A stretch of 64,000 nucleotides of DNA from Myxococcales bacterium (lineage in GTDB: Bacteria > Myxococcota > Myxococcia > Myxococcales > Myxococcaceae). The notes beneath the pieces are model-generated. The model worked only from the letters and a program-made list of their open reading frames with translations. It was not told where the DNA came from and searched no databases. The translations under genes and the position numbers were made by a program. Numbering within the stretch: position 1 is the first letter of the stretch; each line of letters starts with the position of its first letter. Positions 6,398 to 12,349 of this stretch are shown piece after piece. The DNA lies in NCBI GenBank assembly GCA_020846875.1, contig JADLDB010000087.1:1-64000 (forward strand), given 5' to 3'.

Positions 6398-6498
6398 AGC
6401 CGAGGCCCTTGGCGGCGGTAGGTTTGGCCCGCCGCGGCTGGCGCGGAGGCCCCCGCCTGTGCTTTGTGGGCCGCACGTCCTCGGGGAGGGACGCCCTG

Positions 6499-9400
6499 AT
6501 GCGCCTTCGTCTGCTGCCGTTGCTGGCCCTCGGTGCGGCCGTCACCTTCTCGTCCTGCAAGTGCGGCTCCCGGCCGGTCACCGAAGTCCTGTTGCCCGAA
6601 GGCGAGCCGTGCCCCGCGGACGAGCGCTGCGAGACGGGCCTGTGCGACGCCGTCGACGGCGCGCCGAAGAAGTGCCTGCGGAAGTGTGCGTCGGGCTGCC
6701 GGGGCAGCGACGTGTGTACCCCACTGGCCGCCGACCGCTACGCCTGCGTCCCGGAGAAGGCGGGGCTGTGCAAGTCCTGCCAGGCCGACGCCGACTGCCC
6801 CTACGCGGCCGACAAGTGCATCACCCTGGGCGGCGCCACCTTCTGCGGCCGCGACTGCAGCTTCGACGCCGAGTCGTGTCCGTCCAGCTTCCGCTGCGGC
6901 GAGGCCACCAGCGTCTCGGGCGCGCGCGCGCCGTCCCAGTGCCAGCCGTCCTCGGGCACCTGCGAGTGCATCGCCGCCACCGCCGGCCAGCAGGTGCCCT
7001 GCGAGGTGTCCAACGGCTTCGGCCGCTGCGTGGGCAACCAGACGTGCGTCCCGCCCGACGGCTACACCCAGTGCAGCGCCCGCACCCCGGCGGCCGAGGT
7101 GTGCAACGGCCTGGACGACGACTGCAACGGGATGACGGACGAGGGCCTGGGCGACGCGACGTGCGGCGCCGGGGAGTGCCGGCGCAGCGCGGCGGCCTGC
7201 GCCAACGGGGCGCCCCAGACGTGCACGCCCGGGACGCCGGTGGCCGAGACGTGCGACACCAAGGACAACGACTGCGACGGCACGGTGGACAACGGCTTCG
7301 ACACCATGACCAACGTGGCCCACTGCGGGGCGTGCAACCAGCCCTGCAGCCTGCCCCACGCGGTGCCGAAGTGCGTGGCCGGCGCCTGCGACGTGGACTT
7401 CTGCCAGCCGGGGTGGAGCAACGCCGACGGGGTGGCCTCCAACGGCTGCGAGTACCCCTGCACGCCCTCGGACAGCGGGGTGGAGGAGTGCAACGGGGTG
7501 GACGACGACTGCGACGGCATGACGGACGAGGACTTCAACCTGGCGTCCGATCCCACCAACTGCGGCCAGTGCAACCTGGTGTGCAGCGTGCCCGGCACCA
7601 CGGTGGCCACCTACCAGTGCGTGGCCCGCACCTGCGCCATCGGCACCTGCACGCCCGGCCGCGGTAACTGCAACCAGCAGTACGCCGACGGCTGCGAGGT
7701 GGACACCGCCGCCGACGTGCTGCACTGCGGGGCCTGCGCCATGCCCTGCCTGACGGCCAACGCCACGCCTCAGTGCGTGGGCGGCACCTGCGGCATCGCC
7801 CAGTGCAACCAGGGCTTCGCCAACTGCAACGGCCAGGTGGGCGACGGGTGCGAGGTGAACACCAATTCCACCGTCCAGCACTGCGGCGCGTGCAACAACG
7901 CCTGCGCCTTCGCCAACGCCACGGCGGCGTGCACCCTGGGCGCCTGCACCTTCACCTGCCAGACCAACTGGTGGGACGCCGACGGGCAGTCCGCCAACGG
8001 CTGCGAGTACGCCTGCGTGCGCACCAACGGCGGCCTGGAGGCCTGCGACAACATCGACAACGACTGCGACAACCAGGTGGACGAAGGCTTCGACTTGACC
8101 AGTGATGTCAACCACTGCGGCCTGTGCAACCGGGCCTGCGCCGCGCCCTTCGCCACCACCCACTGCACCGCGTCCACCTGCGGCATCCTCTCCTGCAACC
8201 CGGGGCGCGCGGACTGCAACGGGGCGTACCTCGACGGCTGCGAGGTGGACACGCAGTCGTCGCTTTCCCACTGCGGCACCTGCAACAACGCCTGCGTCAC
8301 CGCCAACGCCACCCCGGCCTGCACCGCGGGCGCCTGCGCCATCGGCAACTGCAACGCCGGCTTCGCCAACTGCAACTCGCTGGTGTCCGACGGCTGCGAG
8401 GTGAACACCTTGACCAGCACCGCCCACTGCGGGGCCTGCAACGCCCAGTGCGCGCCGGCCAACGCGTCGGCGGTGTGCCTCAACGGCTCCTGCGGCATCG
8501 GCGCCTGCCTGCCGGGCTTCTGGAACCTGAACGGCCTGGTGAATGACGGCTGCGAGTACGCCTGCGTCGTCACCAACGGCGGCGCCGAGGCCTGCGACGG
8601 CCTGGACAACGACTGCGACGGCGCCCTCGACGAGGGCTACTCGCTGGCCACCGACGTCAACAACTGCGGGGCCTGCGGCAACGTGTGCAGCGCGCCCAAC
8701 GTGACGGTGCCGCGCTGCACCGCGGGCATGTGCGGCGTGCAGCAGTGCGCCAACGGCTTCTCCAACTGCAACGGCGCCTTCCCCGACGGCTGCGAGGTGA
8801 ACACCAACACCTCGCTGGCCCACTGCGGGGCGTGCAACTCGCTGTGCAGCACGCCCAACGCCACCCCGGTGTGCAGCGCCGGCACCTGCCAGGTGCAGAG
8901 CTGCAACGGAGGCTTCCGCAACTGCAACACGCTGCCGTCCGACGGGTGCGAGGTGAACGTCACCAACGACGCCACCAACTGCGGCGGCTGCGGGACGGTG
9001 TGCAGCCGGCCCAACACCGCGCCTTCGTGCGTAGCCAGCGCCTGCCAGTACGCCTGCCTGCCCAACTACTGGGACCTCGACGGCAGCGCGGCCAACGGCT
9101 GCGAGTACGCCTGCACCTTCCTCTCGGCGGTGGACGAGCCGGACCTGGCCCTCACCGACGCCAACTGCGACGGCCTGGACGGGGAGTGGAACAACGCCGT
9201 CTTCGTGGCGCCCTCCGGCAGCGACGGCAACCCGGGCACGCCGGCGCTGCCCAAGCTGACCATCTCCGCGGGCCTGGCCCAGGCGGTGGCCACCGGCAAG
9301 CGCGACGTCCTCATCGCGGGCGGCACCTACACCGAGCAGGTGTCCGTCACCACCGGCGGCAAGGGCCTCTTCGGCGGGTACACCGCGCCCGCCTGGAGCC

Positions 9401-10515
9401 GCAGCCTGTCCACCGCGGTGACGGTGACGGGCGTCAACATGCCCCTGCGGTTGTCGAATGCGCCCAACACGGTGGTGCAGTCCATCAACTTCATCGGGGC
9501 CAACGCCACCGGGGCGGGCGCGTCGGCGTACGGGGCCCTCATCGCCAACTCGGCCAGCGTGCGCCTGGAGCGCCTCACGCTGTCCGCGGGCAGCGGCACG
9601 GCGGGGACGGCGGGCGCGGCGGGCGCGACGGGGGCCTCAGGCACCACCGGCTACGCGGGGCAGCCGGGGTGCGAGGACTCGGGCGGCTTCTGCGCGTCCT
9701 GCGAGCGGCCGGCCGGAGGCGCCGGAGGCAACAGCGCCTGCGGGCGCTTCGGCGGCACCGGCGGGCAGCCGGGCAACGGAGGGAGCTGGGGCTCGCTGGG
9801 AGGCACGGGGGCGGGCGGGACGGCCGGAGGACCGGGCACGCCCAACGGCCAGGGCAACTGGGTGACGCCGTCCACCTACTGGGGCGCCAATGGGCTTGCA
9901 GGCAGCCTGGGGCCCTTCGGGAGCAACGGGCTCAACTTCGGCACGCTGAGCGCGCTGGGTTACACGGTGGCCTTCACCTCCAACGGGGGGCCGGGCGGCC
10001 ACGGGAATGGCGGGGGCGGCGGCGGAGGAGGTGGCGGCGGCAGCGCCGACTGCGACAGCTACGGCGGGGGAGGAGGAGGAGGCGGCGGCGGTGGCTGCGG
10101 CGGTGGCGCAGGCCTGGCGGGGATGAGCGGCGGCGGCAGCTTCGCCGTCTTCCTGTGGAACAGCACGGCGCAGGCCTCCAACTGCACGGTGACGTCGGCC
10201 AACGGCGGCAACGGCGGCAACGGCGGAGGCGGCGGCGTGGGGGGCTCGGGTGGCCCCGGCGGCCCGCAGAATGGCTACGGCGGGGGCGGCGAGCAGGACG
10301 ACGGCTCCAACGGCGGGCGCGGCGGCGTCGGCGGCGCGGGCGGAAACGGCGGGGCGGGTGGCTCCGGCGGCGGCGGGCCCACGGTGGGCGTGGTGCGCGG
10401 CGGCGGCGCGGTGTGGAGCGCCACCGCCACCACCATCACCACCGGCAACCCGGGCTTCGGGGGTACGTCGGCCGCCGGCAGCGGGGCGATGGGGCTGGAC
10501 GTGGCCGTGTATTAG
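6499..10515 (+). CDS. giant Cys-rich, MopE-like surface lipoprotein with beta-helix and Gly-rich tail
   Basis: A 1338-residue exported protein with signal peptide and lipobox (FSSC, Cys20), started by an ATG 7 bases after GGGGAGGGA. Residues 30-190 are Cys-rich. Five 'putative metal-binding' motifs of the MopE type (CDG-x-DNDCDG-x-x-DEG) lie near residues 200, 250, 331, 513 and 697. Between and after them are repeated HCGACN...NGCEYAC modules of about 45-60 residues. From about 903, FVAPSGSDGNPGTPALP marks a DUF1565/parallel beta-helix segment, and residues about 1033-1335 are extremely Gly-rich. MopE-type motifs are known for metal binding in a Methylococcus surface protein; a similar role here is inference. 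Likely located on the outer membrane surface. Clear expression context is not visible. Confidence 0.88.
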   Translation: MRLRLLPLLALGAAVTFSSCKCGSRPVTEVLLPEGEPCPADERCETGLCDAVDGAPKKCLRKCASGCRGSDVCTPLAADRYACVPEKAGLCKSCQADADCPYAADKCITLGGATFCGRDCSFDAESCPSSFRCGEATSVSGARAPSQCQPSSGTCECIAATAGQQVPCEVSNGFGRCVGNQTCVPPDGYTQCSARTPAAEVCNGLDDDCNGMTDEGLGDATCGAGECRRSAAACANGAPQTCTPGTPVAETCDTKDNDCDGTVDNGFDTMTNVAHCGACNQPCSLPHAVPKCVAGACDVDFCQPGWSNADGVASNGCEYPCTPSDSGVEECNGVDDDCDGMTDEDFNLASDPTNCGQCNLVCSVPGTTVATYQCVARTCAIGTCTPGRGNCNQQYADGCEVDTAADVLHCGACAMPCLTANATPQCVGGTCGIAQCNQGFANCNGQVGDGCEVNTNSTVQHCGACNNACAFANATAACTLGACTFTCQTNWWDADGQSANGCEYACVRTNGGLEACDNIDNDCDNQVDEGFDLTSDVNHCGLCNRACAAPFATTHCTASTCGILSCNPGRADCNGAYLDGCEVDTQSSLSHCGTCNNACVTANATPACTAGACAIGNCNAGFANCNSLVSDGCEVNTLTSTAHCGACNAQCAPANASAVCLNGSCGIGACLPGFWNLNGLVNDGCEYACVVTNGGAEACDGLDNDCDGALDEGYSLATDVNNCGACGNVCSAPNVTVPRCTAGMCGVQQCANGFSNCNGAFPDGCEVNTNTSLAHCGACNSLCSTPNATPVCSAGTCQVQSCNGGFRNCNTLPSDGCEVNVTNDATNCGGCGTVCSRPNTAPSCVASACQYACLPNYWDLDGSAANGCEYACTFLSAVDEPDLALTDANCDGLDGEWNNAVFVAPSGSDGNPGTPALPKLTISAGLAQAVATGKRDVLIAGGTYTEQVSVTTGGKGLFGGYTAPAWSRSLSTAVTVTGVNMPLRLSNAPNTVVQSINFIGANATGAGASAYGALIANSASVRLERLTLSAGSGTAGTAGAAGATGASGTTGYAGQPGCEDSGGFCASCERPAGGAGGNSACGRFGGTGGQPGNGGSWGSLGGTGAGGTAGGPGTPNGQGNWVTPSTYWGANGLAGSLGPFGSNGLNFGTLSALGYTVAFTSNGGPGGHGNGGGGGGGGGGGSADCDSYGGGGGGGGGGGCGGGAGLAGMSGGGSFAVFLWNSTAQASNCTVTSANGGNGGNGGGGGVGGSGGPGGPQNGYGGGGEQDDGSNGGRGGVGGAGGNGGAGGSGGGGPTVGVVRGGGAVWSATATTITTGNPGFGGTSAAGSGAMGLDVAVY

Positions 10516-10545: not shown

Positions 10546-11061
10546 GTGCCGCTTCCCGAGGATGCGTCCGAAACCACGGTGGCGACGAAGGTGACGTTCG
10601 CCGCCGCGCCCGCGCGCGCGTGGGACACGTTGATGTTCTACGAGGAGGTCGCGGAGAAGCCACCCCTGCACCTGCGGCTGCTCCTGCCCGTGCCCATCCG
10701 CACCGAGGGCTCGAAGGAGGCGGTGGGCGACGAGGCCCTGTGCCTCTACCAGTCGGGCAGCCTCATCAAGCGCGTCACCGACGTGGAGCCACAGCGCCGC
10801 TACGGCTTCGCGGTGGTGAAGCAGGACCTCGACGTCGGCGGCGGGATGCGCCTGTCGGGAGGCAGCTACACCCTCACCGCGCTGCCAGGCGGTCGCACCG
10901 AAGTGGAAGCCGTCACCCGCTACACCAGCCCCCGGCGGCCGCGCTGGCTGTGGACGCGGGTGGAGGCGGTGGTGTGCCACATGTTCCACCGGCACATCCT
11001 GCGCGAGATGCGCCGGCACGCCGAAACGCCCCGCGCCCTCAAGGGAGCGGCGCCGACGTGA
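10546..11061 (+). CDS. SRPBCC-fold protein, first gene of a three-gene overlapping operon
   Basis: A 171-residue cytoplasmic protein, GTG start after AAGGAGG. The N-terminal pattern (TVATKVTFAAAPARAWDTLMFYEEV) and alternating strand pattern, with a long C-terminal helix (residues about 130-160), fit the SRPBCC/START-like ligand-binding fold (polyketide cyclase or lipid-carrier type). No catalytic residues can be named. Its TGA overlaps the GTG of the DoxX-like gene (GTGA), and that gene overlaps the third gene the same way, so the three products are probably made together. With a membrane protein and a DUF3419 lipid-type transferase as partners, binding of a hydrophobic or lipid ligand is a reasonable inference. 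Confidence 0.78.
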   Translation: MPLPEDASETTVATKVTFAAAPARAWDTLMFYEEVAEKPPLHLRLLLPVPIRTEGSKEAVGDEALCLYQSGSLIKRVTDVEPQRRYGFAVVKQDLDVGGGMRLSGGSYTLTALPGGRTEVEAVTRYTSPRRPRWLWTRVEAVVCHMFHRHILREMRRHAETPRALKGAAPT

Positions 11062-11438
11062 CGGTGCTGCTCCCCAGTTGGCTGGTGCGCGTCGCGGTCG
11101 CCGGCGTGTGGCTGTACGAGGGCCTGTGGTGCAAGTTGCTGGGCGGCGACCCCAACCAACTCACCGTCGTCATGCAGGTGCCGAAGTGGGGCCCGAAGGT
11201 GGGCAAGCCCTTCCTGATGACGTTGGGCGTCGTCGAGGTGTCGCTCGGCCTCTGGGCGCTGTCCGGCCTGCGTCCCTTCGCCTGCGCGGTGGCGCAGACG
11301 GCGCTGCTGGTGACGCTCAACGCCAACGGCCTGTTGTGGTCGCGCAAGCACATCCACGACCCGGCCGGCATGGTGGTGAAGAACTTCGCCTTCCTGGTGC
11401 TGGGCTGGGTGGCGGCCAGCTTCCCGGAGGGCTGGTGA
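11058..11438 (+). CDS. DoxX-like four-helix membrane protein
   Basis: A 126-residue inner-membrane protein with four predicted helices: the N-terminal LLPSWLVRVAVAGVWLYEG, then KPFLMTLGVVEVSLGLWAL, ACAVAQTALLVTLNANGLL and VKNFAFLVLGWVAASF. Size, helix count and the early LYEGLWCKLLGG motif fit the DoxX-like family (DoxX_3 type). The GTG start overlaps the stop of the SRPBCC gene by the sequence GTGA, and its own stop overlaps the DUF3419 start the same way. DoxX-like proteins have been linked to redox and respiratory functions, but the family is diverse and the role here is unknown. A member of this three-gene unit at the membrane would suit a lipid-related pathway. Confidence 0.8.
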   Translation: MTVLLPSWLVRVAVAGVWLYEGLWCKLLGGDPNQLTVVMQVPKWGPKVGKPFLMTLGVVEVSLGLWALSGLRPFACAVAQTALLVTLNANGLLWSRKHIHDPAGMVVKNFAFLVLGWVAASFPEGW

Positions 11439-12349
11439 CGTCCTCCCTGGTGACGACGGGCGCCCAGACGCCGTGGGTGGCGGGGCGCTTCGACGCGAAG
11501 GTGAGCGGCCGGAAAGTCCTCTTCGGGCGCATGTACGAGGACTCGGCCATCGAGCTGGACGCCTTCCGCGGCGCGGGGCGGGTGCTGTGCATCGCCTCGG
11601 CGGGCTGCACGGCGATGACGCTGGCGCCGCACCACGAGGTGGTCGCCGTGGACGTGAACCCCGTGCAACTGGCCTACGCGGCGCAGCGCTTCGCCGGGGG
11701 GCCTCCGGTGCGCGGCAGCGCGGAGCGGGTGATGGACGCGATGCGCTTCTTCGCGCCGCTGTTGGGCTGGTGGCCCTCGAAGCTGCGCCGCTTCCTGGAC
11801 TTGGACGACGTGGCCGCTCAGGCGGACTTCTGGCGCACCCAGTTGGACACCCGCCGCCTGCGCTGGGCCCTGGGCCTGGCCTTCTCCTTCACCGCGCTGC
11901 GGGCGGTGTACTCCTCGCGCTTCCTCGACTTCCTCCCCCGGCGCCTCGGGGCCGTCTTCCACCAGCGCCTCGCGCGCGGCTTCTCCCACAGCCCCAACCG
12001 CACCAACCCGTGGGCGCGGGCGCTGTTGCTGGGGGAAATGTCGACGGACGTGCCGCCGCCCGAGGTGAAGCAGGTGCAGTTGGTCCACGCCGACGCGGCC
12101 TCCTTCCTCGAGGCGCAGCCGGCCGGCAGCTTCGAGGGCTTCACCCTCTCCAACATCCTCGACGGGGCGACGCCGGCGTACCGCGCGCGGCTCTTTTCCG
12201 CGGTGAAGCGGGCAGCGAAGCCGGGGGCGAAGGTGGTGCTGCGCAGCTTCGGCGAGCCGGCAGAGGCGCTCGCCTCGAATCTCGCGGCCCAGGACCGCTC
12301 GATGCTGTGGGGCGTCGTCGACGTGCGGCCCGCGGGCGAGCTGGCTTGA
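11435..12349 (+). CDS. DUF3419 (BtaA-like) SAM-dependent transferase
   Basis: A 304-residue protein, GTG start overlapping the previous stop. The motif LCIASAGCTAMTLA followed by VVAVDVNPVQLAY is the SAM-binding signature of DUF3419 proteins. The C-terminal part has the family's FTLSNILDGATPAYRARLF block and a final GAKVVLRSF strand. The best-known relative is BtaA, which transfers the 3-amino-3-carboxypropyl group of SAM to diacylglycerol in betaine-lipid synthesis. No BtaB-like N-methyltransferase is nearby, so betaine-lipid synthesis cannot be claimed. Context with SRPBCC and DoxX-like proteins suggests a lipid or membrane modification. It ends 14 bases before the convergent kdsB gene. Confidence 0.8.
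   Translation: MTSSLVTTGAQTPWVAGRFDAKVSGRKVLFGRMYEDSAIELDAFRGAGRVLCIASAGCTAMTLAPHHEVVAVDVNPVQLAYAAQRFAGGPPVRGSAERVMDAMRFFAPLLGWWPSKLRRFLDLDDVAAQADFWRTQLDTRRLRWALGLAFSFTALRAVYSSRFLDFLPRRLGAVFHQRLARGFSHSPNRTNPWARALLLGEMSTDVPPPEVKQVQLVHADAASFLEAQPAGSFEGFTLSNILDGATPAYRARLFSAVKRAAKPGAKVVLRSFGEPAEALASNLAAQDRSMLWGVVDVRPAGELA

Follow-up and report, generated by a model that had tools for sequence, protein, structure and literature searches.

A DoxX_3 membrane protein and a DUF3419 protein, encoded by adjoining genes in a Myxococcales bacterium, form the core of a three-gene set whose third member, an SRPBCC protein, is exchanged in other bacteria or sometimes encoded elsewhere in the genome. As far as sequence comparison can tell, the trio is a module held together in several distant bacterial groups. 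Its products probably make or alter an unusual membrane lipid. We tentatively read them as a membrane-docked SAM-dependent lipid-modifying enzyme with BtaA-like chemistry on a putative lipid substrate, and give this reading slightly less than an even chance.

The three genes lie on the forward strand of the window, the whole stretch of 64,000 nucleotides that was analyzed. The first (10546..11061, 171 aa) encodes an SRPBCC/START-like protein of Polyketide_cyc2-like type, a putative hydrophobic-ligand binder. The second (11058..11438, 126 aa) encodes a DoxX_3 four-helix membrane protein, the putative membrane docking subunit, and the third (11435..12349, 304 aa) a BtaA-like DUF3419 protein, a predicted SAM-dependent transferase. 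All three have GTG starts, and that of the SRPBCC gene is backed by an AAGGAGG-like site directly 5' of 10546. GTGA start-stop overlaps are read in the sequence between SRPBCC and DoxX (11058..11061) and between DoxX and DUF3419 (11435..11438). The open reading frames, the strand and both overlaps were re-read exactly as in the preliminary description; the fixed stoichiometry which it drew from the overlaps does not follow from them alone. No NCBIfam match over cut-off and no PHROGs match was obtained for the trio. Scanning found no promoter-like site at the trio and one terminator-like site within the DUF3419 gene (shuffle mean 0.5). A large Cys-/Gly-rich repeat protein with MopE-type (Cu-binding_MopE) metal-binding motifs is encoded at 6466-10515 and ends 30 bp before the trio; beyond the trio, on the opposite strand, comes a kdsB-like gene.

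Conservation of the core was examined within the order and across named genomes. When 145 genomes of the order were searched, the DUF3419 protein was matched in 44 (E 0.001); a close homologue (54-100% identity) occurs in only 9, and the remaining 35 matching genomes are less similar. DoxX directly adjoins DUF3419 in all nine close loci, and SRPBCC is seen beside the two in five of them. Named bacterial and archaeal genomes were scanned with a 9-member DUF3419 profile and two DUF3419 motifs, and the best 80 of 89 confirmed relatives were taken; these loci were chosen by DUF3419 sequence alone, DoxX playing no part in the selection. Seven of the 80 records were judged identical to contigs already counted among the nine close loci, so the two sets are not independent. 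The loci are labelled Myxococcota, Acidobacteriota, Chloroflexota, Actinomycetota and others, the labels being those of the depositors, several of which may be wrong for MAGs. Cultured strains with the module include Bryocella elongata DSM 22489, Silvibacterium bohemicum S15 and several Streptomyces, Kitasatospora and Nocardiopsis.

By HMM scan, DoxX_3 adjoins DUF3419 in 79 of the 80 loci. In the sole locus without it (L064) the contig end falls inside the DUF3419 gene, and in one of the 79 (L092) DoxX is opposite in strand to DUF3419. A 4-bp NTGA overlap between the two genes is possible in 70 of 81 loci (the 80 and the window); the rest show another short overlap (4), a gap of 0-30 bp (4), a longer gap (1), opposite strands (1) or a cut junction (1). 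The families brought together in the preliminary description are therefore not apart in relatives, DoxX and DUF3419 being adjacent in both sets. Of 142 genomes sampled from the order, seven hold the DoxX subfamily (E 1e-15 or better), and all seven carry the DUF3419 clade; two module genomes, G123 and G136, are not among the matches listed for this count and may lie outside the sample.

The profiles of the module's DoxX, SRPBCC, DUF2071 and methyltransferase proteins matched in none of 43 other DUF3419 loci of Myxococcota, with flanks of about 1.5 kb a side. These controls comprise 22 of 30 loci with other DUF3419 proteins (eight Myxococcus-type loci were omitted) and 21 loci from the order-wide search. 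The proposal that any DUF3419 travels with DoxX was rejected on this count, and chance or annotation artefact was rejected because the order of the genes and the overlap are conserved across loci.

The first gene is more variable in position. Its product is likely an SRPBCC protein: Polyketide_cyc2 (PF10604) matches residues 10-149 with 25.2 bits (E 2.2e-5), under the cut-off of 27.4, and no solved relative was found by sequence at E 0.01. SRPBCC adjoins, together with DoxX, in 35 of the 80 loci, and 10 of the 46 loci without DUF2071 have no SRPBCC nearby. Junctions were scored in 35 SRPBCC loci that include the window, under a stricter score than the presence count over 80 loci. An NTGA overlap of SRPBCC with DoxX is possible in only 7 of these, making it less conserved than the overlap of DoxX with DUF3419. 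A gap of 0-30 bp is commonest (18 loci), and the remaining junctions are another short overlap (3), a longer gap (1), unclassified (1), reversed order (2) and opposite strands (3). Within the order, the SRPBCC subfamily was detected in 9 of 145 genomes (E 1e-10), with 194-232 bits in seven module genomes and 70 and 48 bits in two others; more than 100 bits was reached in 7 of the 9 module genomes and in none of the other 136. Two module genomes (G087, G123) hold SRPBCC at another locus, away from the DoxX-DUF3419 pair, and in two of the nine (G053, G009) none was found anywhere in the genome.

In 34 of the 80 loci, from Actinomycetota and Chloroflexota, DUF2071 and a methyltransferase replace SRPBCC beside DoxX-DUF3419, and 32 of these also carry a further small membrane protein. 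DoxX alone accompanies DUF3419, with neither SRPBCC nor DUF2071, in 10 of the 80. In one Streptomyces locus, DUF3419 is followed by DUF2071 (41.3 bits vs 27) and Methyltransf_11 (36.4 bits vs 21.2); the RefSeq name of the Streptomyces homologue is "BtaA family protein", and the record assigns it no pathway. The operon of Streptomyces sp. Caat 7-52 (NZ_CP098484.1) shares the DoxX_3-DUF3419 core and the gene order with the window, but has DUF2071 and a methyltransferase instead of SRPBCC. In a Chloroflexota MAG (L095:7992-9581), DUF3419 and DUF2071 occupy one open frame, possibly a fusion or an assembly artefact; this one MAG gives a hint of physical association. The window's genome yielded no DUF2071 orthologue and no convincing operon-type methyltransferase, the methyltransferase matches in it being weak and partial. 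The earlier remark that no btaB-like gene is adjacent holds for the window and Myxococcota-type loci, but not as a rule for the module, since the operon in the 34 actinobacterial and chloroflexal loci does contain another methyltransferase.

Sequence distances between the partners co-vary. The correlation of pairwise distances was 0.87 for DUF3419 and DoxX (42 loci) and 0.87 for DUF3419 and SRPBCC (27 loci), none of 300 permutations being as high in either comparison, and 0.71 for DoxX and SRPBCC (25 loci). The DoxX alignment held 43 sequences (42 of 77 found loci and the window), and the SRPBCC alignment 27 members (26 of 34 found loci and the window). Neighbouring genes that are inherited vertically would co-vary in this way in any case, and the correlations alone are no evidence of contact.

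The third protein scores 61.0 bits with the Pfam family DUF3419 (PF11899), over the cut-off of 28.2. About 65 profile positions (67-132 of 385) are unmatched by its clade, and the family profile is not covered at full length. Profile comparison relates the clade to btaA-type DUF3419 proteins (probability 99.9%, E 2.3e-35, 20% identity) and to the Myxococcus-type DUF3419 group (probability 99.8%, E 6.9e-29). A quick ML tree was built for 109 DUF3419 proteins by a short, bootstrap-free search, and its outer branches are long; in it, a branch with SH-aLRT 100 separates a 79-member clade from the rest. The clade consists of the window and 78 of the 80 loci, the fused L095 and the truncated L096 being omitted. 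On these comparisons the clade is a distinct sub-family. In the grouping test, L142 and L145, whose DUF3419 stands next to a BtaB-like methyltransferase, fall outside the clade. The methyltransferase is directly 3' of DUF3419 in L142, a member of the btaA-type set, and L145 looks alike by eye; "BtaB-like" is for L142 our own label, given from position and motifs, and no library names it so.

The SAM-site motifs of the DUF3419 protein (CIASAGCTAMTLAPHHEVVAVDVNPVQLAY) span residues 52-81 (11588..11677, forward strand), in which A56, G57, D73, N75, Q78 and Y81 are invariant in 79 of 79 aligned clade sequences, and they align with the corresponding motif in other groups of DUF3419 proteins. The second conserved core of the family is the motif LSNILD (residues 238-243, 12146..12163, same strand), with S239, N240 and D243 invariant in all 79 and counterparts in Myxococcus-type and btaA-type proteins. 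Also invariant in the 79 are F30, G31, E35, D36, E40, G94, R178, N191, G244, R270, W292 and G293, and P76 and E97 are at least 90% conserved in the clade. The kinship with BtaA raised in the preliminary description withstands inspection of the active site: residues common to DUF3419 are kept, and the SAM-site and LSN-x-x-D motifs align with those of btaA-type proteins. The conserved motifs are as compatible with methyl transfer as with aminocarboxypropyl transfer. VIA-align matched the AlphaFold2 model (pLDDT 91.1, pTM 0.89) to class I SAM-methyltransferases (best Z 14.8, rmsd 3.6, 173 of 304 residues), which supports a class I SAM-transferase fold; the predicted fold does not distinguish the two kinds of transfer either. 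Neither the DUF3419 nor the DoxX model had a Foldseek match at E 0.001 or better, and a sequence search of solved structures gave nothing convincing for the trio.

The DoxX protein matches DoxX_3 (PF13781) with 67.2 bits, over the cut-off of 25 (E 2e-18). Its AlphaFold2 model (pLDDT 93.9) is a four-helix bundle with long helices at residues 7-27, 45-69, 73-94 and 102-120, and W18, G22, K26, G57, E60, W66, N88 and P102 are invariant in the aligned set. The best solved match of the model is TMEM35A/NACHO (Z 12.1, rmsd 3.2, 119 residues), also a four-helix membrane bundle. A Z under about 13 may reflect a common helical arrangement alone, so kinship of TMEM35A with DoxX is suggestive only and a role in receptor assembly is not implied. 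A 276-aa tandem DoxX protein with two DoxX_3 stretches is encoded on another contig of the window's genome (G000 contig C9, L173:1393-2223).

According to PMC10685587 and PMC3972451, BtaA converts diacylglycerol and SAM to diacylglyceryl-homoserine, which BtaB then methylates. The window's DUF3419 protein shares with the BtaA of bacterial DGTS synthesis the Pfam family PF11899 and SAM-site, ED and LSN-x-x-D-type motifs. It differs in having about 20% identity by profile alignment, the roughly 65 unmatched Pfam positions and a separate clade (SH-aLRT 100). Unlike BtaA, proteins of the window's type have a near-constant DoxX partner, and no BtaB-like gene is adjacent in the window; a BtaB-like search of the whole genome returned one weak partial match (E 8.5e-4). 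The conserved adjacency and the kept DUF3419 residues bear out the view of the trio as a small, poorly described system of lipid or membrane modification.

Judged by its family, the likeliest chemistry for the DUF3419 protein is 3-amino-3-carboxypropyl transfer: it would move this group of SAM onto the hydroxyl of a neutral lipid, as BtaA does. Diacylglycerol would be the first candidate acceptor, and an isoprenoid or other hydrophobic alcohol the second. From family and fold, DoxX_3 would anchor the soluble enzyme at the membrane, and the SRPBCC or DUF2071 protein would bind the hydrophobic molecule, be it substrate or product, or present it. Where the operon has the actinobacterial form, the head group might then be N-methylated by a membrane-anchored methyltransferase to give a betaine-type lipid without BtaB; in the window's genome the product may receive no methyl groups, or receive them from an enzyme encoded at an unlinked site. 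A more specific version, which we consider rather unlikely, is that the DoxX-docked enzyme represents a new class of polar-lipid synthase, placing an aminocarboxypropyl (homoserine-type) head on a lipid that is not diacylglycerol, such as an isoprenoid alcohol, with SRPBCC and DUF2071 as interchangeable substrate handlers and a non-BtaB methyltransferase in Actinomycetota.

Genes of isoprenoid metabolism occur near some copies of the module. SQS_PSY is nearby in 5 of the 80 loci (L051, L052, L066, L071, L078) and a pair of ArsA-ATPases (both profiles > 60 bits) in 6, all labelled Myxococcota; in 4 of the 5 SQS_PSY-linked loci two ArsA-type ATPase genes follow SQS_PSY. Neither lies near the trio in the window, and with these low counts they were not adopted as parts of the module. 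In three loci (L082, L087, L097) a gene resembling a UbiA-type prenyltransferase by eye is directly downstream of DUF3419. Taken with the five SQS_PSY neighbours, it leaves room for an isoprenoid substrate. Two SQS_PSY genes are present on other contigs of the window's genome and are just distant matches to the module-linked ones. The SQS_PSY proteins near the module (five loci; L033:9123-10064) read LLGVAxD, lacking the first aspartate of the second Asp motif, which we take to be normally present; the other SQS_PSY copy of the window's own genome has LRDVAED there.

These neighbours bear on a rival account in which the DUF3419 protein is a methyltransferase acting on a lipid, quinone or isoprenoid, docked by DoxX and with SRPBCC binding the substrate. 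The five squalene/phytoene-synthase and three UbiA-like neighbours agree with it, as do Methyltransf_25 and Methyltransf_11 matches to the protein, sub-threshold or weaker than DUF3419, a faint resemblance, far under cut-off, to the quinone enzyme RquA, and the methyltransferases that head the structural matches of the model. However, no family matches the protein better than DUF3419, and the same motifs occur in btaA-type proteins. No solved aminocarboxypropyl transferase of the DUF3419 family is among the matches listed, so the structural ranking cannot decide between methyl and aminocarboxypropyl transfer. We regard plain methyl transfer as rather unlikely.

The 34 loci with an operon methyltransferase and the RefSeq name of the Streptomyces homologue could also indicate a true betaine-lipid (DGTS) operon whose methyltransferase is encoded elsewhere in the genome and has escaped recognition, with DoxX and SRPBCC as accessories. 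This is improbable: the clade is separate from the proteins beside a BtaB-like methyltransferase (L142, and L145 by eye), and the window's genome shows no obvious BtaB-like gene. The patchy spread, with a close homologue in 9 of 145 genomes of the order, would suit a cassette passed among soil bacteria whose SAM enzyme acts on a diffusible specialised metabolite, SRPBCC being a cyclase or carrier; other DUF3419 groups do sit with GNAT and iron-oxygenase-like or AMP-binding genes. A dedicated integral membrane partner is nevertheless almost always present, and no other neighbour recurs widely in Myxococcota-type loci under coarse gene-finding, which leaves such a cassette only a slim chance.

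The family is known, and the DoxX-DUF3419 architecture is undescribed in the open-licence literature searched, which gave no account of DUF3419 with DoxX or of DoxX with DUF2071. The papers on DUF3419 in that literature appear to contain no operon of the window's kind, those on DoxX with SRPBCC are, judged by their abstracts, off topic, and no description of the module emerged elsewhere in it. To our knowledge, only a few ways in which bacteria make phosphorus-free amino-acid lipids have been described, and a multi-phylum module with a dedicated membrane partner and exchangeable accessories would add one. It would also explain a large DUF3419 sub-family so far named just by similarity to BtaA. 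If the DoxX-docked synthase is real, Actinomycetota would have assembled a second route to betaine-type lipids independently.

Other DUF3419 proteins occur in different surroundings. A second group, in Myxococcus-like genomes (L041-L048), has a GNAT gene and a Haem_oxygenas_2 (iron-containing redox) gene, and in several loci a FA_desaturase and PAP2_3 pair alongside. These loci share the protein family and the bacterial order with the window but not the partners, module-type DoxX or SRPBCC being present in 0 of 21 scanned. A plasmid of Mycobacterium riyadhense (L136) carries DUF3419 with an iron-containing redox enzyme, GNAT and an RND transporter. At L138:2616-4061 and in alphaproteobacterial plasmids (L134, L135) DUF3419 lies by AMP-binding, ketoacyl-synthase, CoF-synthetase or UbiA genes, an arrangement resembling a biosynthetic cluster. 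In two distant Myxococcota genomes (L144:2586-3446 and L146:2605-3393) DUF3419 is followed by a phosphatidylserine-decarboxylase-family protein (PF02666, 122.6 and 132.7 bits), which could turn an aminocarboxypropyl lipid into an aminopropyl lipid by decarboxylation.
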